DNA from: Halorubrum sp. F4
GTDB taxonomy: Archaea > Halobacteriota > Halobacteria > Halobacteriales > Haloferacaceae
DNA length: 64,000 nucleotides
Assembly (NCBI RefSeq): GCF_027257195.1
Contig: NZ_JAPDFS010000004.1
Coordinates: forward strand, 281,758-345,757
Direction of reading: 5' to 3'
The translations under genes were made by a program, and so were the position numbers. Below are positions 44,573-64,000 of the stretch, piece after piece (the stretch's first letter is position 1; each line of letters opens with the position of its first letter). A model generated the notes under the pieces. The model worked only from the letters and a program-made list of their open reading frames with translations, did no database searches and was not told the origin of the DNA.

Positions 44573-44734
44573 ACCGAGGCGCTAAACCCCCTTCCCCAGC
44601 GAGCGCCGGCCGACGACGGGATCCTCTTTGCCCAGTACTAGTGGACGTCAGAGCCGGTCGGATGGGGGCTCGTCGACGACCTCCGAAGAAGGATCCCGTC
44701 TCGGCTGTGCGTCGGTCAGCGGATCTGAATCGGA

Positions 44735-45184
44735 CTACTGGAGGCGAGCAGTTATCTGGTCGTTCCCTTTCTCGATCTGGACGAGACCGTCCTCAGAGAG
44801 GTCCGAAAGGAGACTTCGCAGCCACTCTCGCCCGTACTCACCGTCGGGTGTGTAATCCACCCGGATGCGGTGGCCAAGTGTGTCCAGTTCCAGCTCGTCG
44901 TGTTCGCCGAGGAGTCGAACGATCCGACCCCGGAACTGCCGACGGCTCCCCTCGAAGCTCGGTTGCGTGGGCACGTCCGGCGCGGTGAAGTCACCGGACT
45001 GGTAGGCGTGACACCACTCGCGCCACGGACACCCGGCCTCGTCACAGCGAGGTTTCTTCCCGCAGGCGACGCCGCCGAGTTCCATGATCGCGTTGTTCCA
45101 GGTTCGAGAGCCGCCCTCGGGCATGAGGTGGGAGGCGACCCGCTCGAAGGCCGCGTCGTCGTCCGGGACGTCGAACGCGCGGTA
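44735..45184 (-). pseudogene. mutY: mutY, 3' part only (A/G-specific adenine glycosylase, truncated)
   Basis: The reading frame on the minus strand encodes YRAFDVPDDDAAF, then the Fe-S cluster cysteines in CGKKPRC...GCPWREWC, then the C-terminal NUDIX-like part to the stop at 44735. Homology to haloarchaeal MutY stops at the Tyr at 45182-45184; the bases beyond encode IIDFFY instead of the expected DTNVARVL-type helix. The catalytic Glu, the helix-hairpin-helix and catalytic Asp are missing, so the fragment cannot excise adenine. An in-frame ATG at 45220 exists, but its N-terminus is not MutY. The rest of the gene is probably at the far end of the island. Confidence 0.88.
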
Positions 45185-45358
45185 ATAGAAGAAATCTATT
45201 ATAGAGTACGACGAGTGCACTCGTGTCGTTTCATTCCTTGTCTACGACAGATTTGCCGCGTCTGATCCCCTCGAACTACTACAACAATAGAGAATAGCCG
45301 GTTTCGACGCTTTGTTCCCTCTCACAGGGAGGCGTCAGTCAGAATGGTGGCAGGACGG
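45185..45358. other. Island left boundary (presumed attL) beside the integrase
   Basis: This is the gap between the end of MutY homology and the integrase stop. It contains an exact 14-base palindrome (ACGAGTGCACTCGT, 45211-45224) and the short palindrome CTATTATAG. It holds no convincing gene. The position between a target-gene break and an integrase is where an attachment site would lie; the core sequence cannot be defined without the other end. Confidence 0.6.
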
Positions 45359-46465: not shown

Positions 46466-47010
46466 TCGTTCCTCTCCGAGTAGTTTGGTTTGTAATCTGT
46501 CTGCCAGTACCACAGTTCCCGCGTGAGACCCTCGCTGTGCGCTGCCATCAACACCGGATTGTAGACGTGGGGAAAGTCTACGTGGTGGACCAACCAATTG
46601 AAGAACGTCTTCAGCGGCGACAAATGCTGGTAGTACACCGTGTTGTCAGACCGTTCGACAACCTTGATCGAATACCCACCCTCCTTGATGTGCTGGAGGT
46701 ATGCTTCGATGTCATCGGGGTGAGCGAGTGCGTGGTGACGCCCTACCTCTTCCCGCATGAACCGTTTGAACCGATCACCACACGGGTACCATGAATTCTC
46801 CTTAGTCGATTCTTTGAGGTCGTCACGTGTTTCCAGGTAGACATCCCATGTGTCTTTATCCCGAAACTGGGATTCGAACGATTCCAGTCGGTACCGGGTC
46901 GGAACTTCCTCGATCGATTTGTACACGCCTAGCCAGTACTCGACATCTCGTTTCCCGGGTGCGTCGTCAGATCGATTTGAGGTCTCGACGTTTGCCCGCG
47001 GCATTACCAC
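46462..47010 (-). CDS. Recombinase core-binding-domain-only partner of the integrase
   Basis: 182 aa, without catalytic residues. The helical stretch FSPLKTFF-type region (SIKVVERSDNTVYYQHLSPL followed by KTFFNWLVHHVDFPHVYNP) resembles the SAM-like core-binding domain found at the front of tyrosine recombinases. It overlaps the integrase by 4 bases and its upstream neighbour too, making a three-gene operon. It probably helps the integrase bind DNA or control directionality; that role is inferred. Confidence 0.6.
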   Translation of the reverse strand: MVMPRANVETSNRSDDAPGKRDVEYWLGVYKSIEEVPTRYRLESFESQFRDKDTWDVYLETRDDLKESTKENSWYPCGDRFKRFMREEVGRHHALAHPDDIEAYLQHIKEGGYSIKVVERSDNTVYYQHLSPLKTFFNWLVHHVDFPHVYNPVLMAAHSEGLTRELWYWQTDYKPNYSERNE

Positions 47011-47444
47011 TCTCCCCCGCTATTGGTCGGATAATACCGATCATCATCGAAGATGAGTTCCTCCCCTTCCATGTCGTCGAGCTGCGTCGTTACTCGTTCA
47101 GGAACGGTCCGTACCACGTGTCTGATGATCTCGTCGTACGGTGCTCCGGGGTTCGCCTGGACGTATTCTTTAATCGTCTGTCTCTCTCCTTGGTAGACCG
47201 CATCTTCCAGATCTTGGATGCGTTCACGCGCACGATCCAGTTCGCTCTTCAGATCGTCCCGCTGTTGTCGAAGCTCACGGTTTGTTTCATCCGGATTAGC
47301 TGAAGCATCGAATTTCTTCATTCCCGCCTCAACCATCGCTTCCATGAACTCGGAGGTAGACATTCCCAACTCGTCAGCCCGATTTTTCCAGCGGGTATAC
47401 TGTTCCTGAGTGGGGTATGTCGCAGCGTGTTTGCTCTCAGCCAT
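47004..47444 (-). CDS. Ribbon-helix-helix-like protein with coiled coil
   Basis: 146 aa. The N-terminus (QYTRWKNRADELGMSTSEFM) looks like a short DNA-binding motif. A long heptad stretch (ETNRELRQQRDDLKSELDR) follows, then a winged-helix-like end (NPGAPYDEIIRHVVRTV). It is probably the transcriptional regulator or excision factor of the integration module. First gene of the operon, overlapping the next by 7 bases. Confidence 0.6.
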   Translation of the reverse strand: MAESKHAATYPTQEQYTRWKNRADELGMSTSEFMEAMVEAGMKKFDASANPDETNRELRQQRDDLKSELDRARERIQDLEDAVYQGERQTIKEYVQANPGAPYDEIIRHVVRTVPERVTTQLDDMEGEELIFDDDRYYPTNSGGEW

Positions 47445-47480
47445 CTCTCACCTCACAACCGTGGATCCACTCCCGTGATC

Positions 47481-47738
47481 TCATTTTGCATCGATGAGCA
47501 AGAACCCGTCTTGTACTCTGACCACGACCTTATCGGTCGTCTCAGGGTTGATACCTTGTTTCTCTAGTTCGTCGGGAGTGAGAAACAGTACGGCACCTAT
47601 CGCCCCCCACTCATCGGTACGATCAATCTCGACTTCTCGGGAGTCATCGATAGACGGCGTATTTCTATTGACTATCTGGTCGATGTGGTCTCCAGGCTGA
47701 GGATCTCCACCAGTTTCGCCGTCAGCAGTTCGGTCCAT
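47481..47738 (-). CDS. Small acidic protein, unknown
   Basis: 85 aa with LFLTPDELEKQGINPETTDK and VVVRVQDGFLLIDAK at the C-terminus, vaguely like AbrB/SpoVT beta-hairpin proteins or antitoxins. No toxin partner is adjacent. It begins 36 bases upstream of the RHH-like gene on the same strand. Confidence 0.55.
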   Translation of the reverse strand: MDRTADGETGGDPQPGDHIDQIVNRNTPSIDDSREVEIDRTDEWGAIGAVLFLTPDELEKQGINPETTDKVVVRVQDGFLLIDAK

Positions 47739-48021
47739 GACATACCAAGATATGGCTGTTATATTTAAATAGACTTGGAAAGTTGGCCTTCTGGTGCTGT
47801 GATTAGACTATATTCGTCTAGTTATATGGGAAATATAGGATAGATTCGAATACTATCCCTTTGCCGTGCCCGCATTACCAATAAACCATTTCAGACTGGA
47901 TTCGACAGATCGATATAAACTCTCCCAACCAGTATCAGCGATCAAGAGGATGTTAAGGCACAGTAGTTGGCAACACACGACAGAAGTCGTGAGGTCCTGC
48001 CACTTACCTAGGTGAAATGAG
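47739..48021. other. Gene-free AT-rich stretch in the island (283 bp)
   Basis: No convincing gene. It is much richer in A+T than the core region (e.g. TATTTAAATAG near 47762, placed to serve as promoter for the gene at 47738). I see no repeat or transposase remnant here. Confidence 0.6.
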
Positions 48022-48459
48022 TTAGCAGTCCCGAATCACGAGGCAGTTTTCTGGTGCGTATCCAACGAGCTGCTCTGCCTGCATGGCGTGTGCGACTTTC
48101 ACGGCTAACGCCATCCCAACGGGCGTAACAGTCTCGGTTTCGAGCATCGCTTCGAGATCGATACGTTGGACGACTTGGCTCGGGGTAAGGCTAGTCCCGA
48201 CCACGATGATGCGGTCGGGATCGGGGGTCGTTTCGATGAACACGAAGTGTTCGTTGTACTGGTGGAACGCGTTGAGGACCGTGCGAAACTTGTCTCTATG
48301 GGGGTCCCACAGGCGGCTACACGCGGCGAGTACGCGGTTCAATACGGTCGGATCTACGGTGCAGTCGTCCGCAGCGGCACGGACGATGTCCGTATCGATC
48401 GGGTGTTCGTTTCGGGGTGCGACGGTCTCGGTCTGTTCGTTCGCATCATGTGAGCTCAT
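48022..48459 (-). CDS. Hypothetical island protein
   Basis: 145 aa from MSSHDANEQ at 48459. Mixed alpha/beta sequence with DRIIVVGTSLTPSQVVQRID and a conserved-looking HFVFIETTPDPDRI stretch. I recognise no family. An upstream in-frame ATG at 48516 adds Cys/Arg-rich residues and is less likely the start. Confidence 0.55.
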   Translation of the reverse strand: MSSHDANEQTETVAPRNEHPIDTDIVRAAADDCTVDPTVLNRVLAACSRLWDPHRDKFRTVLNAFHQYNEHFVFIETTPDPDRIIVVGTSLTPSQVVQRIDLEAMLETETVTPVGMALAVKVAHAMQAEQLVGYAPENCLVIRDC

Positions 48460-49026
48460 TGGTTGTGCCCGCGAGGTGTGACCTCGCCTGAGCAAACAGG
48501 CACAACCAGCAATCACGTTTAAAACTCTGCCTCTCAGCGGGTGTCAGTCAAAGAAGGTACACCGAGAATCCGGCTTCCACGGGTAGTTCCCCGGCTTACA
48601 AACCATACTCCGGTCAACCTGCTGTGAATCCCCAGATCGAGGCCTCTCACTGCGGTCACCGAGTTTCAAACGAATCATTGCAAGATCCCTCGATCAGCGG
48701 GAACTCGCGCGCGGAAACAGACGCACCACAACAGGGGAGGGGTGTCCCGAGTGAAAGTAGGACTACTGTTCGCCCACATCAGTGGTCCCTATAGTACCAC
48801 ACCTGTATCCTCTGCCGAGGAAGATATCGAGAGACAGGTCCGGCGATACACTGAAGTCAGTCGTGTTTGCTGTCGACGTATGCGTCGCCGGTCATACCTC
48901 ACTATCCTATCGGGACTCTCAACGCTACGGCTCATTCCTGACCTTACTCCGGAACCATGCCTTCCCAGAGACGGTCACTTGATGTTCTGGTTCCATTTTC
49001 GCAACGCCATTAACCGAGAAAGACCG
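48460..49026. other. Gene-poor stretch of the island (567 bp)
   Basis: I find no supported gene. A 155-codon open frame runs from 48742, but only its end (from 49027) looks protein-like; the upper part is Arg/Cys-rich and not convincing. It is a possible remnant of decayed island genes. Confidence 0.5.
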
Positions 49027-49209
49027 ATGAGCACCGTCTACTCCCGCGAACACGTTGTTAGTGAGATGGATTTCGACACAGTAACCGAAGCGGAAGCAAT
49101 CCAAGCCCTAGCACTGGCGAACGCAGGGTACTACACGCTGGACGATATCCCTGTACACTGGCAGTTATATTTCGACGACGTAGAACGAGACCTGTCGACG
49201 GATTTGTGA
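49027..49209 (+). CDS. Small acidic protein, unknown
   Basis: 60 aa: MSTVYSREHVVSEMDFDTVT, then a helix (EAIQALALANAGYYTLDDIP). It could be a small regulatory or antitoxin-like protein. The upstream continuation to 48742 is not accepted. It ends 11 bases from the convergent ADP-ribosylglycohydrolase gene. Confidence 0.5.
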   Translation: MSTVYSREHVVSEMDFDTVTEAEAIQALALANAGYYTLDDIPVHWQLYFDDVERDLSTDL

Positions 49210-49219
49210 GCCGATAAAA

Positions 49220-50128
49220 TCACGCGATGGTCACGAGGTGATCCGCGATGTCAGCGAGGCGGTCCGAGTCATCGAGTACGAATATCCATTGACTAGGAAG
49301 AGTTGATGCTCCGAAACGGGCCCCGGCAACCGCTCCTGCTATCGCCCCGATCGTATCAGCGTCTCCACCGCGATTTACGGCCGTTACAATCGCTTCTTCG
49401 GCATTTTCTGCGGAGAGTCCGTCGTGGAGTGCCGTTTGAAGCGAATGGACGACGTACCCGGATGTTTTCAGCGAATCCGGTGTCTCGCCACGAGCAAGTG
49501 GTTCAAGTGCCGTCACGAGTTCGTCAGGTGCATCCGGATCGACACGATCAAGCGCGTCTCGCAACGGCGTGGCATTATTGAGGATCAGACCTGCGATCGT
49601 GAGATTCAGAATCGCACACCCGTACGTGCAGCGCGGGTCTGCGTGTGTGATCAGTGAGGACTGTCGGCTCACCTCCACGAGTCGACCCGAATCGTTGGCG
49701 TACGGAATTACGAGCGGCGCGCACCGCATCACACTACCGTTCCCAGCATTCTGGCCTTCAGGACTATTTTCCCACACTCGTTGGCCCGCCTCGTCCCAGG
49801 CGTCGCCGTGTTTGAGACGACTGATCGCCTTAGCCGTCATCCGTCCGATATCGAACGGGCCGGAGTCGTACCACCCGACGAACCGGTCGGCGATATCAGC
49901 TGGATCGAACTCCCGACGTTCGACTAGACTCTGTGCGATACACAGCGCTTGCTCTGTGTCGTCCGTGACCGTCCCCTCGGGTTGGTTCCACGTGCCGTGG
50001 CCAACCATCTCGTCCAACCGACCATAATTGGACGTGATGACTGACTCGGATTTGAACTCGACCGGCCGCCCGAGTGCGTCCCCACAAGCGAGGCCGAGTA
50101 ACACACCACGTGCTCGGTCTGAATCCAT
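49220..50128 (-). CDS. ADP-ribosylglycohydrolase (DraG/ARH family)
   Basis: 302 aa. Mg-binding and substrate motifs: GLACGDALGRPVEFKS at the front, TDDTE at about 55-59, GNGSVMR in the middle, HADPRC, and NRGGDADTIGAIAGAVAG at about 250. It removes ADP-ribose from proteins, nucleic acids or small molecules. Complete. It lies between small hypotheticals and the CARF regulator, in a position where toxin- or defence-linked ADP-ribose turnover would fit. Confidence 0.9.
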   Translation of the reverse strand: MDSDRARGVLLGLACGDALGRPVEFKSESVITSNYGRLDEMVGHGTWNQPEGTVTDDTEQALCIAQSLVERREFDPADIADRFVGWYDSGPFDIGRMTAKAISRLKHGDAWDEAGQRVWENSPEGQNAGNGSVMRCAPLVIPYANDSGRLVEVSRQSSLITHADPRCTYGCAILNLTIAGLILNNATPLRDALDRVDPDAPDELVTALEPLARGETPDSLKTSGYVVHSLQTALHDGLSAENAEEAIVTAVNRGGDADTIGAIAGAVAGARFGASTLPSQWIFVLDDSDRLADIADHLVTIA

Positions 50129-50293
50129 ACACCACCTACAGCGAATTGTTTGAAAAATGTCCGCACGATAGATTGGGCTTACTACACCAGAGACACACCT
50201 CTATCGATATGCGATTGATCCGCGTTACCAATGACTAACCCTCCGCCTATATATTTCTGAGGTGTCAATTTGACGCGCCTGTAGTCCCCATTA

Positions 50294-50971
50294 TCAGCCA
50301 TTATCCATTATTGAAGACGTAGACAGAGTTTTCAGAAATATACGCCCGCTATCAGTTATTTTCACAGTCTTACTTCGGCCTTGTTTGGTGGTTATCACGA
50401 ACCCTTCTGATTCCAAGGTATCCACATGTCTAGCAATCGTGCTTTTCGATTTCTCAAGCTCGTCAGCAATCGAACTGATAGAAAGGGGAGTGTCGAGTTG
50501 GTCAAGATCAACTAGTAATGATGCTTTAGCATCGGATACATTACTTCGGAGGTTCAATCCTGGGACTCTTCGGACACTATTATCGATGTCGCCTACCTGT
50601 AATACGGTATCAATCCGATGTTCATCCGCGAACGTAGCTACCGTAAGCGGTAATAATAGTTCACGTGCCCCACCTCCAAGAATTACAATAATTTCACCAT
50701 CTGACGACTGAATCAGATCTAAACAAGTCAGTACTGTTTCAACGAAGTCGGTGTGCGGCAATAGTTCCGATTCAAGACGAAGGCCAGGAACGACCTGTGT
50801 CAAGATATTTTCAACCTCATCATAGGCGTTTTCACCCTGTTCAGCGTCCGTATTGGGTTGTAACAGAACAACCCGATCGTCGTCATCAAGCCCCTCACTA
50901 AGGACCGGTCGAACGACACGACGGCTATCAAAGCCGAGGGGTGCAAGATAAGTTCTCATACGCGAACTCAT
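50294..50971 (-). CDS. CARF-HTH transcription regulator (Csa3-like)
   Basis: 225 aa. The N-terminal CARF-type Rossmann fold (about 1-145) has TYLAPLGFDSRRVVRPVL at the ring-nucleotide pocket and GEIIVILGGGARELLLPL at about 92-109. The winged helix (about 160-215) has SISSIADELEKSKSTIARHV. CARF domains sense cyclic oligoadenylates; Csa3 proteins regulate CRISPR or related genes. No CRISPR array is in view. It is divergent from the five-gene operon, with a 417-base gap. Confidence 0.78.
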   Translation of the reverse strand: MSSRMRTYLAPLGFDSRRVVRPVLSEGLDDDDRVVLLQPNTDAEQGENAYDEVENILTQVVPGLRLESELLPHTDFVETVLTCLDLIQSSDGEIIVILGGGARELLLPLTVATFADEHRIDTVLQVGDIDNSVRRVPGLNLRSNVSDAKASLLVDLDQLDTPLSISSIADELEKSKSTIARHVDTLESEGFVITTKQGRSKTVKITDSGRIFLKTLSTSSIMDNG

Positions 50972-51388
50972 CTCGCATTTACCGTTACTGTTCCGATTTA
51001 GTGCAACAATATGTGATTAGTTGATACACTCATGATATCGAAGCAACGATGAGACGAATGATAGTACGTGTCTTCGGAAATACCGTTGCACTATTAGCGC
51101 AACGGAGGCGGAATTGTTGTATTGTCGATAGATTTATTTCCGGAGGTCAGCATTGATACCTGTTCGCAATCATCGTGGCGGGTCTCCCTCGTCACGAAGA
51201 GTGATATCTCCACAATTATCAGATACCCGACAATTTTATCACTTGGAAGCCCATATTGATCATCATCCGCATCCAGCGGAAACGGCCATAACAGGGCGTT
51301 TTCGCACGTAGTTCCAACTACGGCAACGATGCGAGGAAGGGGCGTCCATCCCACATCTGCGCCCTGTCAATCCCAAGCAACCCAAAAA
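50972..51388. promoter_or_regulatory. Divergent control region between the CARF regulator and the defence operon
   Basis: 417 bases, AT-rich, without a supported gene. It contains the inverted repeat at 51083-51105 and a half-site-like GTGCAAC at 51001-51007. TTTATTT near 51132 may be a TATA element. Open frames here (e.g. minus strand 51094-51354) have no recognisable protein character. Confidence 0.5.
51083..51105. promoter_or_regulatory. Inverted repeat, candidate operator for the CARF regulator
   Basis: CCGTTGC, a 9-base spacer, then GCAACGG: exact 7-base arms (8 of 9 when extended by two bases inward). The half-site GTTGCAC recurs as GTGCAAC at 51001-51007. Position between divergent genes fits a regulator-binding site. 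Confidence 0.4.
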
Positions 51389-52255
51389 ATGACAGACCCA
51401 CCCAATACAAAGACACCGGCACTAACCGATTTCGTGGGCACACGAGATTCGTTTCTCGTGATAAAGGACCCACAGTTGGCGAAGACCGGAACACAAGCCC
51501 GCGCACAACTTCGATCGCTACCGTTCCTCAGGGAGTTCGGACTTCAGCGAGTCGCACATCCCGCGATCTACGATAACGGACTCCGCCTGGTGAATTACGA
51601 TCTGGTTTCGAACGAAGACCTGCGGGAAGACGGCGTAAGCGATGTCGAATTCCCTCTAACCCACTATGTTAGCCAAGACATGCTGACTGGTGACCTGCAA
51701 GATGAGGATCGTAAATTCGACGACCAGGATGTGGTCCGAAGGTTGCTTCGTTCACGCCCTACTGACGAGACATACGTACTCGTTACTGACACAAGCTCAC
51801 CGATGATGCCGCGACACACCAAAAAACCTGGAAAGTCGTTCATCGACGAGTTCGAGTGCTCTGTGGCGGATTATAAGGGGCTATTAAAAAGGTTCTTGCA
51901 GTACAATCTTGACTCTGCGCTCTCTCTGTCGACGACGCAGAATCTATACTTCCACCAACTCTCGGACTTTCATCAGAAGACGGGGCTCGAAGCGGATTCA
52001 ATACCGGCATTGTTCGACTACACCCGAATCCCAGCTGACAGTCCTGCGTGGGATCCGCTGTATTACCTGATCCGCGAGGATGTCGAACAAGTTCTCGACG
52101 ATTACTCTGAGCGTATCCGTGCAGCACTCCGTTCGTGGACCGAGCGAGGACCTACTCAGGATATCGCCAATAGAATGCTCGACATGCTGGAACGGGTCGA
52201 TTTCGAAGAAGAGCGGCTCGACAACTATCGCTACCGTCACCAAGAGAAACAATGA
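51389..52255 (+). CDS. Defence operon gene A: unknown, 288 aa
   Basis: 288 aa from MTDPPNTKTPALTDF. Alpha/beta front half (DSFLVIKDPQLAKTGTQARA, LRLVNYDLVSNEDL) and a helical back half (ADYKGLLKRFLQYNLDSALS, LIREDVEQVLDDYSERIRAA). I recognise no family, catalytic motif or membrane segment. Its last bases overlap gene B by 4 (ATGA), so it is the first gene of the operon. An in-frame ATG at 51329 gives a less natural N-terminus. Confidence 0.7.
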   Translation: MTDPPNTKTPALTDFVGTRDSFLVIKDPQLAKTGTQARAQLRSLPFLREFGLQRVAHPAIYDNGLRLVNYDLVSNEDLREDGVSDVEFPLTHYVSQDMLTGDLQDEDRKFDDQDVVRRLLRSRPTDETYVLVTDTSSPMMPRHTKKPGKSFIDEFECSVADYKGLLKRFLQYNLDSALSLSTTQNLYFHQLSDFHQKTGLEADSIPALFDYTRIPADSPAWDPLYYLIREDVEQVLDDYSERIRAALRSWTERGPTQDIANRMLDMLERVDFEEERLDNYRYRHQEKQ

Positions 52256-53178
52256 GTACGTCATACACACCAGCCAGTCATAAGCCCGACAAGCTACTCA
52301 CCGGGTTCATCTCCGTTCGAGTACCGGAACTCAAGCACATTTACAGCTCCATCCAAGCATCGACGAGCACGAAAGAGGTGAACGGTAAGTTCGGACGACC
52401 CAGTAATTCGGGTCTCCAGACAGATCACATCGGAGACACACTGCGGTTTCTGAACGCGGTTGACCTTGTGGAGAGCCCCTCAGGGGACATACTCGACACG
52501 GTTGAACGAATTAACGACCGCCGATTTGAGGGATTACCGTTCGAGGCACGCCTACTGTACCACTGCAACCAACAGGATGGTCGTCAGCGTCACTTCGCGG
52601 ACGTTCACAGGGCGCTTCTCGATGAAGGCGGGAGAACCGTAGATGCCGACCGTGATAGTCTCCGAACCATTCTGAAGCGGGAAACGGACTACGACTTCAG
52701 TTGGACCGACGAGAAGATCGATATGTGGGTCACGCTGTGTGAACAGATCGGTGTAATATCGGAGACAGAAGACGGGATCGTGCTAAGCCCCTGTCGCGCA
52801 TTGATGCACGACGCGCTCGTGCTCGCTCCAATAAGCTCAGGCGAAGACCCTGAGTACACCGAAGCACCAGTTGAGGATATCGAAGCCAGTCCGGCACTCA
52901 ATTGGATCGACGAAAACCTGTTCACCGTCTACGCTGCTCGCAGCGGAACTCGTCGTGTCCATCCGAGCGTGGCTGACGTGTTGCGAAACCTGGCCGATGA
53001 CGAAGTCATTAGCCTGTCTGCGCCCGGTGACGCACAGAACGAGGTCGAGTTACCGCCAGAAGACTTGAACGAGGACAGTCGCGGAAACCGACGAGACGTT
53101 ACACACTTATCACTCCGGTCGTCGCCAGCGGAGACCGCGTATCAGTACCCCCTTGATCAGCAGATTACTCGACAATGA
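52252..53178 (+). CDS. Defence operon gene B: winged-helix-like protein, 308 aa
   Basis: 308 aa. Two stretches read as winged helices (GLQTDHIGDTLRFLNAVDLV at about 55-75, and LTILKRE-type RDSLRTILKRETDYDFSWTD at about 135-155). No catalytic motif. In size and in its place before a ~1000-aa ATPase it matches DpdG-like proteins of 7-deazaguanine DNA systems; I rank that as a hypothesis. It overlaps A and C by 4 bases each. Confidence 0.68.
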   Translation: MSTSYTPASHKPDKLLTGFISVRVPELKHIYSSIQASTSTKEVNGKFGRPSNSGLQTDHIGDTLRFLNAVDLVESPSGDILDTVERINDRRFEGLPFEARLLYHCNQQDGRQRHFADVHRALLDEGGRTVDADRDSLRTILKRETDYDFSWTDEKIDMWVTLCEQIGVISETEDGIVLSPCRALMHDALVLAPISSGEDPEYTEAPVEDIEASPALNWIDENLFTVYAARSGTRRVHPSVADVLRNLADDEVISLSAPGDAQNEVELPPEDLNEDSRGNRRDVTHLSLRSSPAETAYQYPLDQQITRQ

Positions 53179-56100
53179 GTCAGAAAACACAAGATCCGAC
53201 CGAAGGCGGACAGATGCCCACCTACTGGGACGACAGTCAGGTAGACCACTTTATAACATCTGAGGCCCATACGAAACATAAGACGCCAGAGCAGTTCAAG
53301 GAGACCCACGTCGATATCGATCGGATTTTTGCCGATCATCTCACTCCGCTCGGAGTGTCGGGGAACTTCGTCACTCAGGAGGACGTCCTGAACGCGATCA
53401 CCGCCTCAGATATTCACGATCCGAACAGGATCTTCATTCTTCGAGGCGAACCAGGATCGGGGAAATCGCAGCTCTGCGAGTGGACTAAGTATCAAATCAA
53501 CGGATACGGTGACGATGATGACGGTATCGAGGACTACGTTGCGCTTCACGTATCCCGTAGCCAAACTCGGATGGACCAGATCCTCGACGTATTGACTGAA
53601 CCACTGGACGTCGAAACTGACGTACAGAATATCGACGATCTGGATCCATTCGACGCGGCCAGTGCGATCGTCGAATACTTGAACGGGATCTGGTCCACGG
53701 AACATTTTACTGATGAGGAGCTTCGTGAGCTGACCGAAAGCCGAGGAGACGACAGCGATCTTAGAGAGATCTTTGCGAGGAATATTCAGGACTACCAAGA
53801 CTCACTCGAATCGCGCGACGATAATCCGGATTTTAACTTGATAACTGATTCCGATTATCGAGACCTTCGACTTCAGGTCAGCTTCAGTACCAAGCTCACC
53901 GAAAATAAAGACCTATTGTATTCGGTCCTGAAAAACGAGGCTCACGAATACCTGTCACGAAATCTCGTCGGGGACTTCAAGGAGCAGCTCAAAGAATATT
54001 CAGACCAATACCAAGAGCAGGGGATTCGACCGGTACTCATCTGTGAGGACCTCACGACGTTCAGTGTCCTAAAAGAGCAGTTACTCGACCACATCTTCGA
54101 ACTCAGCAGTAGTTGCTACGACATCGTTCTCGGCTGGACTATCGGTTGGGAACAGGACAACATCAACGACGCACTCGCTCGTCAGGACGCTGCGACGTAC
54201 ATGAAGGGGCGGACTGAGGGTTACCTGACGATGACCGATGACAACGGTGAGGCGTACTTTCTCGACGACGACGTTTCCGTCGCCCTCGCCCGATCTTACC
54301 TCAATGCGATCAAGCGAAACTCGGATGTCAAGGAGGCCCCCGACGAGATACTTGAAGCCTTTGACAGACTGTACCCGTTCAACGAGCGATTCATCCACGT
54401 GGCGTATCGCCAGCTCAACGATGAAGGTAGCAATCGGAAAACGCCACGCTTACTCCTGCTTCGAGTGGTTAAGCACTGTCTGAAATCATCGCTACCCCCA
54501 TACGAATCGATGAAGTCGAACTCGTTCGTCGACACTCCGACGTTCGAGATCGACATGAAGTACGATCAGATCTACCAGGACATCAGTCGCTGGTATGGGG
54601 TTCCCGTGAAAGACGGAGTCGGCGTCAAGGTCGGGATCTTCGAAACGTTCGGTATCGAGCTACCAGATGATGATCTGGCATCAGTAAAAGATGGATATGT
54701 CGTGTTCGACCGGGGGAAGGGTAGTGCGGTCATCAAGAAGATCAAAAATCCGCCGACCCCGACACACGTCGAAGAGGAAGACGAAGATGAGAATGACACC
54801 GACGATACCGATGAGTCAGAGGACGACGGAGATGGGGAGTCCGAAGATGATGGCGATGAGGAAATTGAGATAGAGCCAGATCGGGAACTGACTGAGGAAG
54901 AGCGTGAGCGACAACAACAGTTCCAAGAGTTCCAAGATTGGGTAACCAACGGCGAGGAGTACCCGAGTTCCGATACGCTTCATGATGGGGCAGTCGCAAC
55001 ACTCGAACGCTGGCACGAGCCGACTCGTCTCGGACATCCGAACGCACCGACACATTCTACGGAAGACCGAACCGCCGGTGCGATCTACTACGCTCGTGGG
55101 GATAGCGTCCCGGTATCGATACAGGGAGACCAGCAGCGACAAGCAAGTATCGACATCGAACTCAAGTGGGGGGCAGACAACGCTGACCTCTACATGAGTA
55201 TGCTCGAATACGGCTTGTTTGACGTATTTGATCCTCAGACGACAAACTTCGACCAGTTGCGTGCTTGGGCTGATACCAACGTCGCGCAATTTAAGCGGGA
55301 GATGCGCGACGAGATCGAAGACTGTCTCCCCGACGAACTTGATATCGAAAAGACCCTCGTCTTGGCGAAAGTGTTCCTGATCAACGCTGCCCGCGGAGTG
55401 GAAATCGAAGACGACGGAATTCCCACCGATCTCGTCTTCGAAAACTACGATGCAAATCAGCCCTACGGTAAGCCGGTTCGGGAAAACTTCGAGAAGGACG
55501 GGTCATTCGGAAAGGCGTTCGGTCAGCTTACTGCGTCATCAAGTGCGGTCCACGACCTGATAGAGGGTTTCTTCCTTCTGCGGTCGAAGGTCGTCGATTA
55601 CGACCGATTATCTGATGCACGGCAGGAGATTTCAGAGGATTTCCAGGCCCATGTCGACGCCGCATTAGATATCGATCCGGCTGGTCTCGCCGACGCGTAT
55701 AAGATCGGTTCGACCCGGAACAACGCTACGACGAAGATGTCAAGTCTGTTGGATCGGGTTTCAAATTACGCTGCAGAACTCGACCGTCTCACGGTTGAGG
55801 ACGACGCTACACACATTCAGGAAGCACTCGAACCGATCGAGCGATGGTACGATAACAGTCACACGGTCGATGATCTCGCGGACTGGTTCGAGACGCTGTA
55901 TCAGTGTGCCGGGGCGATGGACGTGCCCCTCAAGTCGAGTTACGACGAGGCTTACGAAACGCTCACCGAGAATCCCGAAGACGTGCGACTGAGTGACTTC
56001 GGAGACGACGTTGAACGGTTCCGGAACATGGACGACGTGTACGGGGTCACGTTGATCGCTCGATTGCACGACTTCGCTCGGAGTCAGCACGAACAGGAAG

Positions 56101-56261
56101 CCTGGGAGATTTACGAGGCATTCGACTCGCTCATTAGCGACCTGCAGGAGGTTGACCACGCAACTGGTTCCGATCTCGAACAACGCCTCCAACAACTCGA
56201 CGAGTACAGTGATTACGAACAGAACAGGCAGAGCATCCTCTCAATTACGGAGGAACTGTAA
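53175..56261 (+). CDS. Defence operon gene C: large P-loop ATPase (DpdH-like?)
   Basis: 1028 aa. Walker A GEPGSGKS at about 91-98 (FILRGEPGSGKSQLCEWTKY), Walker B VLICED at about 287-292 followed by LTTFSVLKEQLLDHIFELSS, and a GWTIGWE motif. A very acidic linker (about 535-580, Asp/Glu/Thr) separates the NTPase half from a helical C-terminal half (about 600-1028). The architecture suggests a motor or switch ATPase, not an ABC protein. A DpdH or PbeC role is plausible but unproven. Confidence 0.75.
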   Translation: MSQKTQDPTEGGQMPTYWDDSQVDHFITSEAHTKHKTPEQFKETHVDIDRIFADHLTPLGVSGNFVTQEDVLNAITASDIHDPNRIFILRGEPGSGKSQLCEWTKYQINGYGDDDDGIEDYVALHVSRSQTRMDQILDVLTEPLDVETDVQNIDDLDPFDAASAIVEYLNGIWSTEHFTDEELRELTESRGDDSDLREIFARNIQDYQDSLESRDDNPDFNLITDSDYRDLRLQVSFSTKLTENKDLLYSVLKNEAHEYLSRNLVGDFKEQLKEYSDQYQEQGIRPVLICEDLTTFSVLKEQLLDHIFELSSSCYDIVLGWTIGWEQDNINDALARQDAATYMKGRTEGYLTMTDDNGEAYFLDDDVSVALARSYLNAIKRNSDVKEAPDEILEAFDRLYPFNERFIHVAYRQLNDEGSNRKTPRLLLLRVVKHCLKSSLPPYESMKSNSFVDTPTFEIDMKYDQIYQDISRWYGVPVKDGVGVKVGIFETFGIELPDDDLASVKDGYVVFDRGKGSAVIKKIKNPPTPTHVEEEDEDENDTDDTDESEDDGDGESEDDGDEEIEIEPDRELTEEERERQQQFQEFQDWVTNGEEYPSSDTLHDGAVATLERWHEPTRLGHPNAPTHSTEDRTAGAIYYARGDSVPVSIQGDQQRQASIDIELKWGADNADLYMSMLEYGLFDVFDPQTTNFDQLRAWADTNVAQFKREMRDEIEDCLPDELDIEKTLVLAKVFLINAARGVEIEDDGIPTDLVFENYDANQPYGKPVRENFEKDGSFGKAFGQLTASSSAVHDLIEGFFLLRSKVVDYDRLSDARQEISEDFQAHVDAALDIDPAGLADAYKIGSTRNNATTKMSSLLDRVSNYAAELDRLTVEDDATHIQEALEPIERWYDNSHTVDDLADWFETLYQCAGAMDVPLKSSYDEAYETLTENPEDVRLSDFGDDVERFRNMDDVYGVTLIARLHDFARSQHEQEAWEIYEAFDSLISDLQEVDHATGSDLEQRLQQLDEYSDYEQNRQSILSITEEL

Positions 56262-56262
56262 C

Positions 56263-57087
56263 ATGTCCAACTCGGAATCCTTACCCACGGTAGTCGGCGC
56301 GCTCGAAGACAAGGCTAGGGAACACAAACAGGCGGAGAACACGCAGTACCACGTCTCGGTCGCGCAGCACAACATCCGGGAAGTGAACAATGCGATAACC
56401 GAATTGGAAGAGGCACTCAATGATCTCCGATACTACGAGACAATACTAGAGGAGGCGTTTAATGAGGAATCTCCAACCATGCTTAATAGTGCCGTACAGA
56501 CCGCTGAGCAGGCAGTTGGTGTGACTCAAGATGAGTTGTTGGGTAACGTGCAGAGCAAGGAGATGGATGACAGCGAGGTTGAACTCAGTGGAGACGACGC
56601 CGACTTGACGGTCGAACTCACTCCAGAGGTTGAGACCCAGGTGAGCCAAATCCGATCAGCGAAAAAGCAAGTGGAGAGCGTCGCTCAGACCGTTCGGAGT
56701 CAGTTAGAGAGCAAGCGAGACGACTGGGTTACGAAGGTCAATGCGGCAGAGGAGTTACAGAAAATCCTCGGTGGGCAGAACTCCGACTTTGCGAAAACTC
56801 TGAACCACATGCAGCGGCTCCTCAACCGCGAATTGATGGACTCAAGCGGAAGAGCGTCAAAGTTCGTCTCCGAGTGGGACAACGCCACCAGTAACTGGGA
56901 CAAGCACCAGTCACTCCAGAGCTTCGACGATTTTCAGGATCGACACGACCTTTCCGATTCGACGATTGAAGACGTGAAAACGTTGAGCAAGTCCCAGCGT
57001 CTCACGTTGGCTGACGTGTCCCTCGATTCGCTGAAAGAGATGAAACGCGTCAGCGAACTAGAATCGGCTGTTGAGCTCAGCCTCTGA
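56263..57087 (+). CDS. Defence operon gene D: coiled-coil protein, 274 aa
   Basis: 274 aa, almost wholly helical. Heptads are clear at about 30-65 (REVNNAITELEEALNDLRYY) and about 115-165 (QVSQIRSAKKQVESVAQTVR). No enzyme motif. It likely bridges the ATPase and the helicase. Position between them matches DpdI. It starts 1 base after the ATPase stop and ends 2 bases before the helicase start. Confidence 0.7.
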   Translation: MSNSESLPTVVGALEDKAREHKQAENTQYHVSVAQHNIREVNNAITELEEALNDLRYYETILEEAFNEESPTMLNSAVQTAEQAVGVTQDELLGNVQSKEMDDSEVELSGDDADLTVELTPEVETQVSQIRSAKKQVESVAQTVRSQLESKRDDWVTKVNAAEELQKILGGQNSDFAKTLNHMQRLLNRELMDSSGRASKFVSEWDNATSNWDKHQSLQSFDDFQDRHDLSDSTIEDVKTLSKSQRLTLADVSLDSLKEMKRVSELESAVELSL

Positions 57088-57089
57088 CG

Positions 57090-60000
57090 ATGCAGGATCC
57101 AGTATCCAGAGGGGAGCAAATGCGAGCGGCCTACCGAGACTACTTCATCGGTCGAGGTGGGCGCGCTGCACGGAGCGTTGCGAATCGCTTAGCCGACGGT
57201 GAGAGTGATGTCACGGGCATGCGCGGCCCGTACTTGCAGGCACTCGACATTCCGAACTGGAGCGACCGTTCATGGGAGTCGTTTGCCCGATCAACCCACC
57301 TCGAACCCCACATCAGGCGCGCATTTTCTCAAATCGGGTTTGAGCGGCTTTACGATTTTCAGGAACGCAGTATTGAGGCTGTACTAGATGGCGACGACAC
57401 TGTCATTACGGCTGCAACGGGGCGAGGCAAAACCGAAGCCTGGCTCATCCCCATTCTCAACCGGATCCTCGAAGCGAAACGCCAGGGAGACGAAGAAGAT
57501 GAAACAACCGTCAAAGCGACGCTTATCTATCCGACGAAGGCGCTCGCCCAAGATCAGCTGAAACGACTCCTACAGTATCTCTATCTCATCAATAAGCAGC
57601 TGAAGTCCTCTCAGCGTATTTCAGTCGGGATATTTGACGGAGACACGCCACGCAACGTGAGTGAGTCCGGTTCGGAGGGGTACCTTAACGCTACCTTCCG
57701 CCACTTTGAATGTCCCGGATACAACTCCGATTTGGAAAAATGCCAAGACTGCGGTGCAGGCGTTCGGGTCAGAAATACCGGGTCCCGTTTCAAGCTTATT
57801 CCGGAGAAAGCACACTGTGAGAACGATGATCCGAACGATGTCCCCCTCGATTTCCTCCGATTAACACGATACGACATCCTGGAAAACGGAGTTGATATCC
57901 TCCTTACGAATCCCGACTCAATCAATTACCGGCTTATCAACACCAACGCGGATGACGAGCACGAGAGGTTCATCTACGAACCGGAATTCCTCGTGTTCGA
58001 CGAGGTACATACGTATGACGGTCTGTTCGGTTCCTACACCTCAACGTTGATGAAGCGGATCCAATCACTACGTGACGAACGAGGTGAAAACAGCCTACAA
58101 CTCATTGCGAGTAGCGCAACTGTAGAGAACGATGTCGAGCTCTTTCAGAAGGTCAGTGGGGCGATCGACGTAACTCAGGTGAGTGAGTCACCCCGAGAAC
58201 TAGGAGGGGACGACCCATCATCCGTCCCGGAATCCCTGACTTCGCGGGAGATTACCGTGGATGGTATTCTTGAGGCGACGGCTAATGAGGAGGATACTGT
58301 TCCAGGGCTGGACTCGTTCGAATACAAGTTAGAAGACGCGTCCCATTACGACCGTGAGCGCCGAGAAACCTTGGTCGCCGACGGGCTGTTTGATTATCTA
58401 ACCGGATGCCCCGATGATCCCGCAATACAGGTAGTGCAGTACGTGCATCAGCTTCTCTACGAGAACCCGCTCACCCGTTCGGAATTGCACAAGCAACTTT
58501 CCACCGAATTGAACCTCGACGAAGGTGACGTCGAAACTCTCATCAAAAACGTACGTACGTTGGGCGAATTTTCCGGGATACTGGAGAACCGAAGCCACCT
58601 GTTCTCGTGGCCAATCGATGGATTTTACGCTTGTGTGAGGTGTGACGCTGTCTACCGTACACCACAAGACAGGTGTCGTGAGTGTGAATTCGACTTCGTA
58701 ACTCGGTCCACATACTGTAGATCTTGTAGCGACGAACACCTCATCGCTTGGTACTGCCCCGAATGCGACCAACTAGAACCGTACACGCCGACGGAACATG
58801 GATCGGTCGGGCAAGACGAGGAACACCTGTGTGGGAACTGTGAGTCGGCGGATAGGGGTGATGTACACTCCCTGAAAGCAACGTTCCGACCGTTCCTACG
58901 CTGCGCGGACTGCGACCGCATTTCAGAACGGAGAACCACACACGACTGCGGGAACTGTGGGGGTAGAACAGTTAGAACTGCTCCCGATACGTTTACCTGT
59001 ATCAATCCGGGATGCGGTTCGACCCACGAAGCAAACCAAATCTGTAACCACTGTGAGGGCGACACGTTCGAGGTCGCGGTCTGCGAGGGATCGTTCGAAT
59101 GTACTGACTGCGGATCGTCCTACCGGAGACCTTCGGAAGCACCGGGTACCTGCATGGAATGTGAAGCCACTCTCAGATCGACTCGGTTCATCCCCTGGGT
59201 CTGTACTAACGACAGTTGCGATAGAATACATTTCCGGGAGGGGATGGAGGAGTGTCCATGCGGCCAGACGGAGTTTGTCAAACGGGGACTTTTGGAGATA
59301 AGGCACGATCAACATTGTCGGTCGTGTGGTACGGCGTTCGTCGGAGACTCCGAGTGCAGTTGTGACACACCGGACATCCATCCGAGAACCGGAGCACACC
59401 AAGCATACAAAACGCTTGATAGGGACACGGCGATCCATTCGATGAGTTCACATGGCTCGGCGGTACCGTGTCCGCACTCGTATACCCGGTTCGAGATCGG
59501 GAGTCGATTTGACGAGTTAATGCGGAGCCCGAACAACCTCGCAGCGACGACTTCTCAATACCTGCTCCGGGCTGTCGCGGATGACGAAGGACAACGGGCA
59601 GCCAAGTTGCTCTCGTTCGCCGATTCCCATCGGGATATGAAGGAGCTTAGTCGGGACTTTAGCGAACCGGAAGTCGAAACCCTACTTGACCAACTGCTCG
59701 TTCGAGCCGGAGCAATCGAAGGGCAAGCACATAGCTGGATATCGTTTGACCAAGTCATCGAGTATGCAGACGAGGCGATCGAGGACCTGAATGACTCGCT
59801 TGAACCGCCTCGCGTCGCGCGAAACGTCGAGGTCGATCTCAAGTCGAGACTGAAAGACCAACCACGGAAACGATGGGATGACGACGAGGCCCTCCAAGAC
59901 AGGCTCTCGCGTCGCGCCCTAACGCACACCTACAGCCAGCGGTTCGGAGAACGAGACCAGCCCCTTTCAGAACTCGGACTTCTCGACGTAAGGTTTGCCC

Positions 60001-60845
60001 CAGGGTTAGAATCCCTCTCTGCGGACGAACGGGCAGTCTTACGCGAACTCGTCGATGCCGGTAACGGATATCGAGTGGCGAACTTCAACGATCCCGGCGG
60101 GCAACGAGGCGTGGACGACATAATCGGCGACCTCGTCGATCGTGATATACTCGCCTATGGCCATTCGGAAGAGTACGTGTCCTTCGCACCGGAGGCGTTA
60201 GAGATCACGGCTGCGGGGGAGGGCGACAATATCCGATTCGACCCGGAATCAGAACAGTACTACACGTCGCTTCATCACCAGTTCGGACTTGCTGATCAGT
60301 CCACAGTACGTTCGAACGCGTCGGTCAGCGACTTGGCGTCCGTCAACCATCCACGGTTCACACAGCGGGCCCATCGGATAGAATACTCCCAAACGCGAAT
60401 CCTACTTTCCGAGGAGTATCTTGGAACGACCGACAAGCGGAAGAGGCGGGAATTGGAGTTCCTGTTCCGAGAGGAGAACTATCCCCATCACCTTTCGTCC
60501 GGCCCAACCATGGAGCTCGGTGTCGATATCGGATCGCTCGACGCGTTACTACTGTACGGGACGCCGCCAAACATGAACGCCTACCTTCAGCGAGTCGGTC
60601 GTGCTGGTAGGAGCTCACATTCCTCACTGGTACATTCCGTGAGCCAGCGGAATCCCATCGACTACTACTACTACGACCACCCGGACGAACTCATTTCGGC
60701 AGAGCCCACACCGGTTCCGTTGAATGAACACAACGAAGGGACGATATTACCGGGCAACTTTACGACGTTGACGAACAGAAGAATGAGAAGACGGACGATT
60801 TTATCGAGGGTATTTATAATTTCATTACTCATTCAACACATCTAA
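57090..60845 (+). pseudogene. Defence operon gene E: DEAD-type helicase with zinc-knuckle array, C-terminus lost
   Basis: Helicase homology spans about 1216 codons; the frame runs on to 60845 with an unrelated tail. Q-motif YDFQERSI (about 88), Walker A ATGRGKTE (about 109-116), DEVH (about 304-307), SSATVEN (about 340), then about 15 Cys pairs at residues 513-757, then RecA2 with TMELGVDIGSLD and QRVGRAGR (about 1167-1174), then QRNPIDYYYYDHPDE. Relatives continue for several hundred residues, usually including a C-terminal zinc domain of the DUF1998/MZB type. Here that part is gone; PLNEHNE is the last conserved piece. Compare DpdJ, PbeD-like and DISARM DrmA helicases. Confidence 0.82.
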
Positions 60846-63718
60846 TTGCTATTATTGCTGTTCTTGCAATTGCTGCAGTCGCATCCAGCTTTATGGGATT
60901 CGATAATATTTCAACCAGTCTGTTGATTTTGATTGCCGCGCCGTTGTTGGTGTTTATGGCAGAACAGTTGCAAACGGCTACAACGACACTTCAGCGGAAG
61001 TTTGTGTATCCTCGGAAAGAGTGGTCTGGTGCCTATGAGCGGATCTTTCACCAATTGATCGATAAGGCACAGGAAGATACGAATACGAACCGTATTATCA
61101 TTTCAATTGATAATCTGGATCGGTGCCAAAGTCGGACAGTCTACGAGGTGCTTGTTTCTTTGAAGACATTCATGGATGTCTCGCCGTGTATCTATATCAT
61201 TCCATGTGATGATGATGCGCTAAAAAGCCACATTCAGCAAATTGATCACCAGGAGGGGACATATTTTAAAGAGGGCCAGAATACTCGTGAGTTCTTGAGG
61301 AAGTTTTTCCAGACGACTATTCGGATTCCGCCGATACTTGCGGATGATATTGAGGCATATGCTGAATCTCAGAATGATCGATTGAATCAGCCATATAACC
61401 CGGAGGTGTTGGACGTACTGACTAAGGCATACATCAAAACACCTCGTCGTATCAAGCAGGGTCTTAATCGAGTTACGGCGTTACGGTTGCTTGCCGAAGA
61501 GATAGAGGAGAGTGATGCAGGGTTAGAGCAGACCCGTGTTACGGATCATCCTGCATTTCTGGCAAAAATTGCGGTGCTAGAAGAGGATTATCCGGATTTC
61601 TATAATGCCTTACAAGAAAACCCTCGACTCTTAGATGACGTTGATCGGTTTTTTATTGGAGATCTACCTGAAGAGCGCAAAGGTGAAGTTGAGCGGTTGT
61701 TTGAGGAAACTGCAGCGGAAACGAGCGGTATTTCGAATTTGCGGACGTTTTTGAAAGCTACGCGCCCGACTTCGGTTCCAGATATTAAGCCATTCTTACA
61801 TCTGAGTGAGCCGCAGTATGCAGGCGCACTTGATACAAATTTTGTCCAGTTTCTCCGAACAAATCAAGTTGAAGATGTTAAACAGTTACTTGACGATGTT
61901 GATGAGGAAGCCGATGAGCCGTTTGCCGTCCACTGTGAGGCGATTGAAGATATTCTGGATGAGTATGACCAAGAAAGCCGTGACCAAGCACTCTTCAGCA
62001 CTATTGAGAGCATTCTTGAAGTCTTTGACCAGTTTGATGACACTGCGAAACGGCGGATTGCTGATGCGGTAGGGGAGGTGCTTACGGTACGTCTCGGTGA
62101 TGGTTTTGTCGAACGATTCAATCTTTATGACCTTATCTGGCTGCTGGACCGAATTTCAGAACCAGGTATCCGTGTAAACCTCCTGACGGAGCTTGCTACG
62201 ACAGTGGTGGTCGATGGAGAATGGCAGAAGAATCGCCTCGAAGCGTTCATCGCATATTCGTACAGATACGAGGATGGAAAGTCTGAGCGTGTTCATAGAC
62301 CGCTTCCACAAAGGACAATTCGGATGTTGTCTGATCAGTTGTTGGAGCTCCCGAAGGGAGATGATAGTGATACGTTTCAGGAGTCCGCATTTGGGGAAGC
62401 ATTGGAGTATATTCGGTATGCGGGCCCAGGGTGGAGCCTTTTGACAGACGATCTGATGGAACCACTGGTAGAGGTCATTAACCGTGAAGAGGAAGATTCT
62501 GAGTTTGTTAATGCTGATCTGTACGTGAAGTTGGATCCGGGTGCGTCTCCTGAAATTCGTGGCCAATTCGTGTGTCAGTTGCTTGAATTCTCGCCTTCCA
62601 GTAATGAAAACCGGGCTAATCGTACTTATAATACATTAGCGGAGCATCTATTAGAGGTTGAACCAGAGATTGATGAGGCATCTGCAGATTCACTTTATGA
62701 TCATATCGGTCAGGTGGTAGACTCGAAGGATACGAATGCTATTGATGTTGTGGAGGCTGGGTTCCACTTTTACGAGTCTGCTACAAGTGAGGCACGAGAA
62801 CAATTCAGTCAAACAGTAGCTACGCTTCTTGAGGACTGGGGACTGAAATACGCACAGAAACCGATGGGGTGGGCAAAAGAATATGAGACTAACGAGATAT
62901 TCGAAGATTCGAAGATTTTCATGGCGTATATGTCACAAGTTCCGGACAAATTCTCGAATAGCAGCACCGTTAGTACGGTTGTATCACGGTTCTCGGAGCG
63001 GTTCGATACAGAGCTGAATGAGGATATGGAGCGGTTGATTGATACCGCTGATGACGATGAACGCCAGTTGGGTGCTGAGATCTTTAGTTCTACGCCGTAT
63101 CGATTTGAGAATTCACAGGATCTGGTAGTTAAAACGTGTTTGAAGCAAGCTCAACGAGCTGGAACGGAGTATCGTCAATCGTATTTGAAGGCAGTAGCTG
63201 TCGTGTATGATGCTATTGAGGAGAGTAGTCAACAGACCTTCATCGACCGGTTGGAAGAATTCTTGGAGGAACGCACGTCAAGCGATTATCAAGCCTTCAG
63301 GGATGTTTGGAATCAGATCGAGGGCGTGGTTGAGCCTCGGTACAAGCGGCAGTTAGCCGATTCGATTATCGAAGTATTGGAGGACGAATCAGTACCTCCG
63401 GAAGAGTTGGTCTCGGTCATCTACAATATCCATGATGAGCTCAGTGAAGGAAAACTGCAGCGCTGTATTGAAATAATGGTAAACGATCTTAGTAATGCAA
63501 ATAATAAGCAGGCTCGCACCATCTTTGACCTACTTAGTGAATGCCCTAACTTTACTGATTCAGAGGACGCAGTTCTCACACGAATTGAAAGCTTCCTCGA
63601 TCAAAATAGCGCAAAAAGCTCAACCACAAACGCAATTGATAGCGTATTAACCGCATTAGAAGAACGGGGTAGTCCCGATGGAGAACGGATTGCCACCATC
63701 CGGGAGAACTACCTCTAA
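60743..63718 (+). pseudogene. Membrane KAP-family P-loop NTPase, N-terminus missing
   Basis: The frame can be followed back to 60743 (DITGQLYDVDEQ), where it meets the helicase. About 990 codons remain; a start at 60893 (MGFDNISTS) is formally possible. Two membrane helices (THLIAIIAVLAIAAVASSF; LLILIAAPLLVFMAEQL) and Walker B IIISIDNLDRC with PCIYIIPCDDDALKS mark a KAP NTPase, in which the helices lie between Walker A and B. The P-loop part before them is missing. A long helical C-terminal region follows. It is much richer in A+T than its neighbour. Confidence 0.75.
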
Positions 63719-64000
63719 TTAGGATGGAAACGGAGAGAAGGGGAAGGGAAGGTTACTCGTGGTCGTGGAGTCAATCGGTGGCGTCTGCGTTGACATAGAT
63801 CGAATCCCGGGCGGTGATTTTTGCGATGAATACACAATCTTCGTTGACCTATCGTCACCGTCCTTTGAGCCTCCCGTAGTGCGTGCATGCAAAATATGCA
63901 CGTTGTATCTTGCAAGCCTCTAAGAAAATATCCGAAGGCTAGGGTCGTGGAGTAGATTAGAATATACGCCTCTATTACTGTGTCAACAGATACCGAGATA
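63719..64000. other. Gene-free stretch at the right window edge
   Basis: 282 bases with no supported gene; small minus-strand frames (63719-63901 and 63715-63915) look random. It holds an inverted repeat CGTGCAT-N7-ATGCACG at 63882-63902 and a C/T-rich stretch on the minus strand just after the KAP stop (63719-63755), which may act as terminator. The island's right end is not reached. Confidence 0.5.

Follow-up and report, generated by a model that had tools for sequence, protein, structure and literature searches.

The operon of five genes, here called A to E, in a 64,000-nucleotide stretch of Halorubrum sp. F4 DNA (the window, which is the terminal part of contig C34 in an assembly of 75 contigs and 3.28 Mb) very probably makes up the restriction side of a BRIGADE Type II system that is degraded in this genome as assembled. 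BRIGADE is defined in the main text of a preprint as a class found exclusively in halophilic archaea, with a Dpd-like 7-deazaguanine cluster and usually two YprA helicases (Bell et al. 2025 preprint, PMC12458937); according to the same text its neighbourhood typically includes a PLD or PD-(D/E)xK nuclease, and the helicases are one ARMADA-like and one Dpd-like in Type I, and two ARMADA-like in Type II (PMC12458937). An earlier note on this DNA had rightly suspected a defence operon, which is real and conserved; it had presented the system as a candidate uncharacterised one, and here it was overtaken by that preprint (PMC12458937). The interest of the locus is mainly in its link to a Csa3 regulator and in gene A. 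The operon is classed by descent, as a degraded member, because the relatives show the whole system and the copy in Halorubrum sp. F4 does not.

Genes A to E and their conservation

Genes A to E are five long open reading frames (ORFs) of the plus strand, with overlaps of 4 bases between A and B and between B and C, and gaps of 1 base between C and D and 2 bases between D and E, confirming the tight packing described in the earlier note. Gene A (51389-52255, +) encodes a haloarchaeal subunit of 288 aa that belongs to no known family and had no match in Pfam, NCBIfam or PADLOC; the ORF list carries it upstream to 51329, and the start was set at 51389 because this fits the relatives, which have 288 aa. 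Gene B (52252-53178, +) is DpdG-like (hhalign against DpdG: 90.6%, E 1.3e-6, 238 columns), and no family was found above chance for it in PADLOC, Pfam and NCBIfam. Gene C (53175-56261, +) encodes a DpdH-like P-loop ATPase of 1028 aa (hhalign against DpdH: 99.6%, E 1.3e-24), containing GEPGSGKS and LICED, which we take to be a Walker A and a Walker B-like motif; it matched the NCBIfam DpdH model at 5.5e-11, with 41.7 bits against a cut-off of 450. Gene D (56263-57087, +) encodes 274 aa from an ATG (the ORF list begins it at TTG 56152), is coiled-coil-like and occupies the position of dpdI. Gene E (57090-60845, +) holds the N-terminal two thirds of a first YprA-family helicase (helicase 1), with homology up to base 60737; it contains 12 CxxC pairs and the motifs GRGKT, DEVH and QRVGRAGR. 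Its library matches (PADLOC, Pfam, NCBIfam) were to the DruE, DpdJ, BrxH and DrmA helicases, the top PADLOC match being DruE1 (4.8e-41), and its NCBIfam score was 103.5 bits against a cut-off of 800. The top PDB match of a full-length E relative was YprA (6znp, 5.7e-27), and profiles of A, B and C gave nothing below E 0.2 against PDB sequences.

Profile-profile comparison of eight locus families with six Dpd families (48 pairs) gave only two pairs above 10%, B-DpdG and C-DpdH (DpdG profile of four sequences, DpdH profile of three), the next pair reaching 9.8%. A Chloroflexota locus (L061) is intermediate, with a protein that matches the NCBIfam DpdH model at 3.7e-17 and window C at 3e-34 by tblastn. 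The canonical Dpd loci in Agrobacterium, Enterobacter and Nostoc plasmids have the order dpdE-F-G-H-unnamed gene-J, with dpdK adjacent or a few genes on, and B-C-D-E-PLD is collinear with dpdG-H-I-J-K if the unnamed gene is taken as dpdI, which is our own assignment. These matches and the shared order bear out the earlier note in naming DpdG-H-I-J as the nearest bacterial layout of an anti-virus type operon; the profile comparison that it had proposed for A-E succeeded for B and C and gave no Dpd match for A and D. In an alignment, the HxK and GS(A/M)N residues of DpdK are also conserved in the PLD proteins of the relatives; the PLD-DpdK profile pair scored 6.4%, and a scan for HxK(x4)D was positive in 0/22 of these proteins. 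DpdG, DpdH, an HxK PLD nuclease, DpdA, DpdC, preQ0 genes and gene order are common to Dpd and to these loci, whereas the latter differ in having a helicase of another clade, the extra subunit A, a second helicase, DpdA and DpdC that are often fused, a second TGT and a BrxD-like ATPase.

The first search with gene C covered 60 related genomes, six of which matched, Halorubrum sp. F4 included. The five other relatives were mapped and have the order A-B-C-D-E, an E of ~1840-1870 aa and a PLD gene (5/5), with csa3 upstream and a second helicase (~1818 aa) in three of the five. The C profile matched 71 of 392 haloarchaeal genomes: 40 strongly (best E <= 3.3e-183, a cut of our own) and 31 weakly (1.6e-21 or weaker). 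Next to C in the 40 mapped loci, which include the window locus and for which ORFs of all kinds were used, A was present in 40, B in 37 and D in 39, indicating that the conservation of the operon is not due to chance; the three loci missing B are two with an overlong C frame and one (G192) with a broken C, which is also without D. A DpdA match (profile threshold E 1e-20) was found in 39 of the 40 strong-C genomes versus 18 of the 352 others (Fisher p 1.2e-38), among them just 3 of the 31 weak-C genomes.

Two helicases lie downstream of C in 25 of the 40 loci, and all 25 also have csa3 and PLD. Nine loci have a single helicase downstream, with over 12 kb of sequence on that side; csa3 was present in 0/9 of them and PLD in 3/9 (three of them, G158, G248 and G257, have a further helicase-like ORF upstream on the opposite strand). 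The other six (G225, G060, G078, G063, G323 and the window) are cut by a contig end, have less sequence or have no downstream helicase, with csa3 in 3/6. A set of 28 loci from named genomes, overlapping the 40, comprises 19 haloarchaeal loci and nine bacterial ones at 24-30% identity; gene A was present in 19/19 and 0/9 of them, respectively, and gene B in 19/19 and 8/9. The nine bacterial loci (L056-L062, L064, L065; Chloroflexota and Deinococcota) have C-like genes, with B-like genes in eight and DpdA-type labels in six. In Calidithermus (L060) the C-like gene is 1.2 kb from a dpdE-F-G-H cluster.

Modification genes and helicase genes broken in the assembly

The operon looked partnerless because its contig stops just short of the modification genes. 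The last 58 bases of the window (63943-64000, +) are identical to positions 91110-91167 of contig C12 of the same assembly, which lead into a DpdA-DpdC gene, and no third copy of this stretch was found in the genome; it is therefore most likely that the window contig runs on into the modification genes, ~1.4 kb before dpdA. The set on C12 comprises the DpdA-DpdC fusion (970 aa, stop-free), a second TGT, a 298-aa protein, a BrxD-like ATPase, QueD, QueE and QueC, all of them open frames of normal length. The earlier note had considered that the modification partner might have been lost; on the contrary, its genes lie on C12, beside the missing helicase parts, and DpdA accompanies strong C relatives in 39/40 genomes. 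Taken together, the five mapped relatives have DpdA-DpdC (fused or split), the second TGT, the 298-aa protein, the BrxD-like ATPase, a queuosine-precursor type transporter, QueD, QueE and QueC. An intact annotated cluster is present in the Salinigranum marinum plasmid NZ_CP100464.1: queC, folE, queE, a QueD-type gene, TGT, a second TGT, a BREX ATPase, csa3, four hypothetical proteins occupying the positions of A-D, a pair of DEAD/DEAH helicases and PLD. ThiF-family and E2/UBC genes are found near this Salinigranum marinum cluster (L179 753-3108).

Contig C12 also holds the rest of helicase 1. Searching by tblastn with full-length relatives (1842 aa) placed residues 1-1216 in the window and residues 1218-1842 on C12, the two parts adjoining with at most one residue lost; in gene E the homology ends at residue 1216 (base 60737) and the final 35 codons are unrelated. 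The five genes of the earlier note are real, with E incomplete. Helicase 2 is on C12 as separate pieces, residues 1-536 and 554-1455. The first piece continues gap-free, at residue ~537, into a repeat with inverted ends that resembles a miniature inverted-repeat transposable element (MITE); the homology of the second ends exactly at C12 91110, its C-terminal ~363 residues missing in gap-free sequence and not found elsewhere in the genome. The sequence of C12 from 2001 to 118000 is interrupted by a run of ten N at just two points, immediately ahead of the helicase-1 remainder and of the helicase-2 remainder. A KAP ATPase gene (60893-63718, +) is cut at the same junction as gene E, its N-terminal part being absent (Pfam KAP_NTPase from profile position 138 onward) and its Walker A part with it; the first ~116 residues of a relative had no match in the Halorubrum sp. 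F4 genome, and no counterpart lies at the same place in the five mapped relatives. A relative of this ATPase is present in one of 53 same-genus genomes searched (G137, L097), the window itself excluded. An AbiEii-type toxin gene lies at C12 85970-86770, shortly ahead of the helicase-2 remainder.

The restriction side as assembled is probably inactive, because E is cut at residue 1216 of ~1842, helicase 2 is broken and no PLD gene was found in Halorubrum sp. F4 (the same query was positive in 5/5 other genomes; a PD-(D/E)xK nuclease as a substitute for PLD was not searched for in this genome). Quite possibly, though we lean the other way, the break in E is an artefact of the assembly or of mixed strains, with helicase 1 intact in the living cell and perhaps a working BRIGADE there. 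The near-perfect meeting of the two parts of helicase 1 would fit this, as would the position of the two N runs directly before the helicase remainders, the entry of the window contig and of the helicase-2 remainder into the same bases at C12 91110, like a two-path assembly graph, and a short direct repeat, read by eye, on both sides of one gap, which flanks the MITE-like repeat. Against it stand the failure to find the PLD gene, which the other genomes (5/5) yielded, and the damage to helicase 2 inside gap-free sequence, both at its C-terminus and where the MITE-like repeat abuts it. Helicase 2 and the PLD nuclease look lost whether helicase 1 is split or the assembly mixes two variants, and decay on the restriction side, with the modification genes still open, is the simplest reading. 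A programmed rearrangement of the helicase genes was set aside because the breaks fall at assembly gaps and repeats.

The locus is part of a stretch (44000-64000) in which GC content falls from ~70% to ~50%, and a phage-type integrase gene (45362-46597) lies where this stretch begins, indicating that the region is probably an acquired island; a tRNA search of window positions 38000-64000 found none.

Placement among known systems

The operon fits best with BRIGADE Type II: it comes from halophilic archaea and has two YprA-family helicases of the same clade (present only in pieces in Halorubrum sp. F4), a 7-deazaguanine cluster and, in the relatives, PLD. In a tree of 42 rows (a quick method, with SH-aLRT support only and long-branch warnings, and no DISARM or Druantia row knowingly included), helicases 1 and 2 are old paralogues that group with the helicases of related loci in a single starred clade, separate from the DpdJ branch. 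Another clade unites DpdJ with the second helicase from two of the weak-C loci (wG005 and wG120); the program warns that this join may be a long-branch artefact. A BrxA-like insert and a zinc barrel are further features of the BRIGADE helicase, and E has the 12 CxxC pairs given above.

Several results count against this placement. The two helicases are ~37-40% identical to each other, whereas the preprint says 'nearly identical' for Type II; both are in pieces in Halorubrum sp. F4, where PLD was not found; the presumed ARMADA rows of the tree stand outside the clade of helicases 1 and 2, and the forks that would connect them to it are unsupported (we assigned these rows by gene context: preceded by a helicase gene or the end of one, with an annotated DNA methylase in 3/4 and followed by a further helicase in 3/4); and the two-helicase layout is not seen in 15 of the 40 loci. 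Gene A, which the earlier note had correctly described as lacking a recognisable counterpart, matched none of the six Dpd profiles, D showed no similarity to DpdI in the profile comparison (0.3%), and none of DpdB, DpdD, DpdE and DpdF was recognised in ten scanned neighbour proteins of relatives. The main text of the preprint has no mention of Csa3 or DpdH and has CARF in its references only, and gene A may be drawn in its figures or supplement (PMC12458937); a literature search gave no further description of BRIGADE, or of a tie between Csa3 and DpdA or 7-deazaguanine.

Seven weak-C loci were examined: a helicase, B and C are present in every one, A in six and TGT genes in four. They had been candidates for a new, modification-free system, and with this gene content they look like BRIGADE Type I instead, sharing distant B and C, a helicase of its own clade and, in wG005 and wG120, the two loci whose second helicase was long enough to be placed, a helicase that joins DpdJ in the tree. 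They differ from the window in their order, helicase-A-B-C, and in having no csa3 match beside C.

Other systems resemble the operon less closely. ARMADA and Druantia (ArmC, DruE) also have large zinc-rich YprA-family helicases, but no methylase was found among the proteins scanned here, and base exchange is implied rather than methylation. The earlier note had counted PbeABCD and DISARM among the close layouts. PbeABCD is likewise a haloarchaeal antiviral operon with a superfamily 2 (SF2) helicase and an ATPase; yet PbeC belongs to the CxC-type ABC ATPases and PbeD is related to DndE, in a system tied to phosphorothioation (PMC10853773), whereas C is a DpdH-type ATPase and the matches of A-E include no CxC ABC ATPase or DndE-like family. 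DISARM fares no better, since neither a separate DUF1998 protein nor a methylase was found among A-F and ten neighbour proteins of the relatives; a weak MZB match, just under the cut-off, lies within the C terminus of a second helicase.

It is very improbable that A-D and the helicase act alone as a new, modification-independent five-gene antiviral system. The window does lack a modification gene; one of the 40 loci (G060) has A-D and csa3 with no DpdA match and no downstream helicase; and the two halves can part, as seen in the DpdA matches outside the strong-C genomes and in their scarcity among the weak-C ones. Nevertheless, a DpdA protein accompanies strong C relatives in all genomes except one, the end of the window contig overlaps DNA leading into dpdA, G060 looks degenerate (its D-type ORF has 121 aa), and the TGT genes of four of the seven weak-C loci are of another kind. 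The earlier note's suggestion of action without DNA modification is therefore unsupported, the partner genes being present in the same genome and in those of its strong-C relatives. That the operon is a canonical bacterial Dpd system (DpdG-H-I-J-K) is also very improbable: the B-DpdG and C-DpdH homology, the shared gene order and the DpdK-type HxK...GS(A/M)N residues of the relatives' PLD would agree with it, but E falls outside the DpdJ branch, C and E score far below the NCBIfam cut-offs given above, gene A and the second helicase are extra, and D is unlike DpdI.

Csa3, proposed mechanism and significance

Divergently upstream of the operon, csa3 (50294-50971, -) encodes a CARF-HTH transcription regulator that matched PADLOC CARF3 (6.8e-84) and Csa3 (2.8e-28), Pfam Csa3_N (1.3e-17) and NCBIfam TIGR01884 (1.8e-26, above the cut-off); no match was found among PDB sequences. 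An ADP-ribosylglycohydrolase gene lies near it at 49220-50128 (Pfam 9.3e-79). Csa3 of Saccharolobus solfataricus binds cyclic tetra-adenylate (cA4) through two motifs, and its Phe14 position is needed for this binding (PMC8844856). In the window protein the motifs read LGFDSR and GGGAR, and Arg occupies the position of Phe14 (our own residue assignment); among 28 BRIGADE Csa3 proteins, the G-x-R cA4 motif is present in all and GF(D/N) in 23. A candidate operator, TTACTGTTCCGATTTAGTGCAACAATA, lies between csa3 and A (50985-51011), with related 8-mers recurring in as many as 18 of the 28 intergenic regions between csa3 and A that were compared, a count that is inflated by close relatives, has no shuffle control and is to be read as a lead only. 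The tie of csa3 to the two-helicase form, seen in 25/25 loci and with a cA4-binding motif kept, is possibly new.

None of the 40 strong-C genomes, and two of the 392 overall, gave a match to a Cas10 profile, this being a single profile that can miss divergent forms (5 of 14 control genomes matched, three archaea and one E. coli among them). SMODS cyclases were found in 41 of the 392 genomes, including four of the 40. We consider it rather doubtful, although worth stating, that the two-helicase BRIGADE would be a second-messenger-inducible restriction system, in which Csa3 would sense a cyclic oligonucleotide other than that of type III CRISPR and turn the operon on only after attack; what suggests it is the presence of csa3 in 25/25 two-helicase loci vs 0/9 one-helicase loci, the kept motifs, the Cas10 result and the SMODS count.

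The sequences show the gene content, the families, their co-occurrence and the damage in the assembly; how an intact BRIGADE Type II system might act, its activity, chemistry, complex formation and regulation included, we infer from the Dpd family. There, synthesis falls to dpdA-C and restriction to dpdD-K, and in Salmonella the marks distinguish self from non-self (PMC11888242). By analogy, preQ0 would be made by the Que enzymes (QueD, QueE and QueC in Halorubrum sp. F4, with FolE alongside in Salinigranum; FolE was not searched for in F4), and the DpdA-DpdC fusion and the second TGT would mark the cell's own DNA by swapping guanine for a 7-deazaguanine. Unmarked DNA may be sensed by a complex of A, B, C and D, with the DpdH-like ATPase and the DpdG-like protein as putative sensor and motor and A and D as added subunits; this complex would drive the destructive part onto that DNA, namely both YprA helicases, which are zinc-rich, and a PLD nuclease of DpdK-like type. 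The divergent Csa3 is predicted to control the A-E operon.

An apparent unknown thus becomes a placed system, in which B and C gain names (DpdG-like and DpdH-like) and gene A is a constant haloarchaeal partner (40/40 loci) with no Dpd counterpart. Some haloarchaeal tailed viruses carry preQ0/G+ genes (PMC8651126), and such viruses are natural test material for evasion. The link between csa3 and the two-helicase form poses the question of what, if anything, Csa3 senses in cells without a Cas10 match; if the second-messenger reading were true, it would tie nucleotide signalling to 7-deazaguanine DNA restriction.

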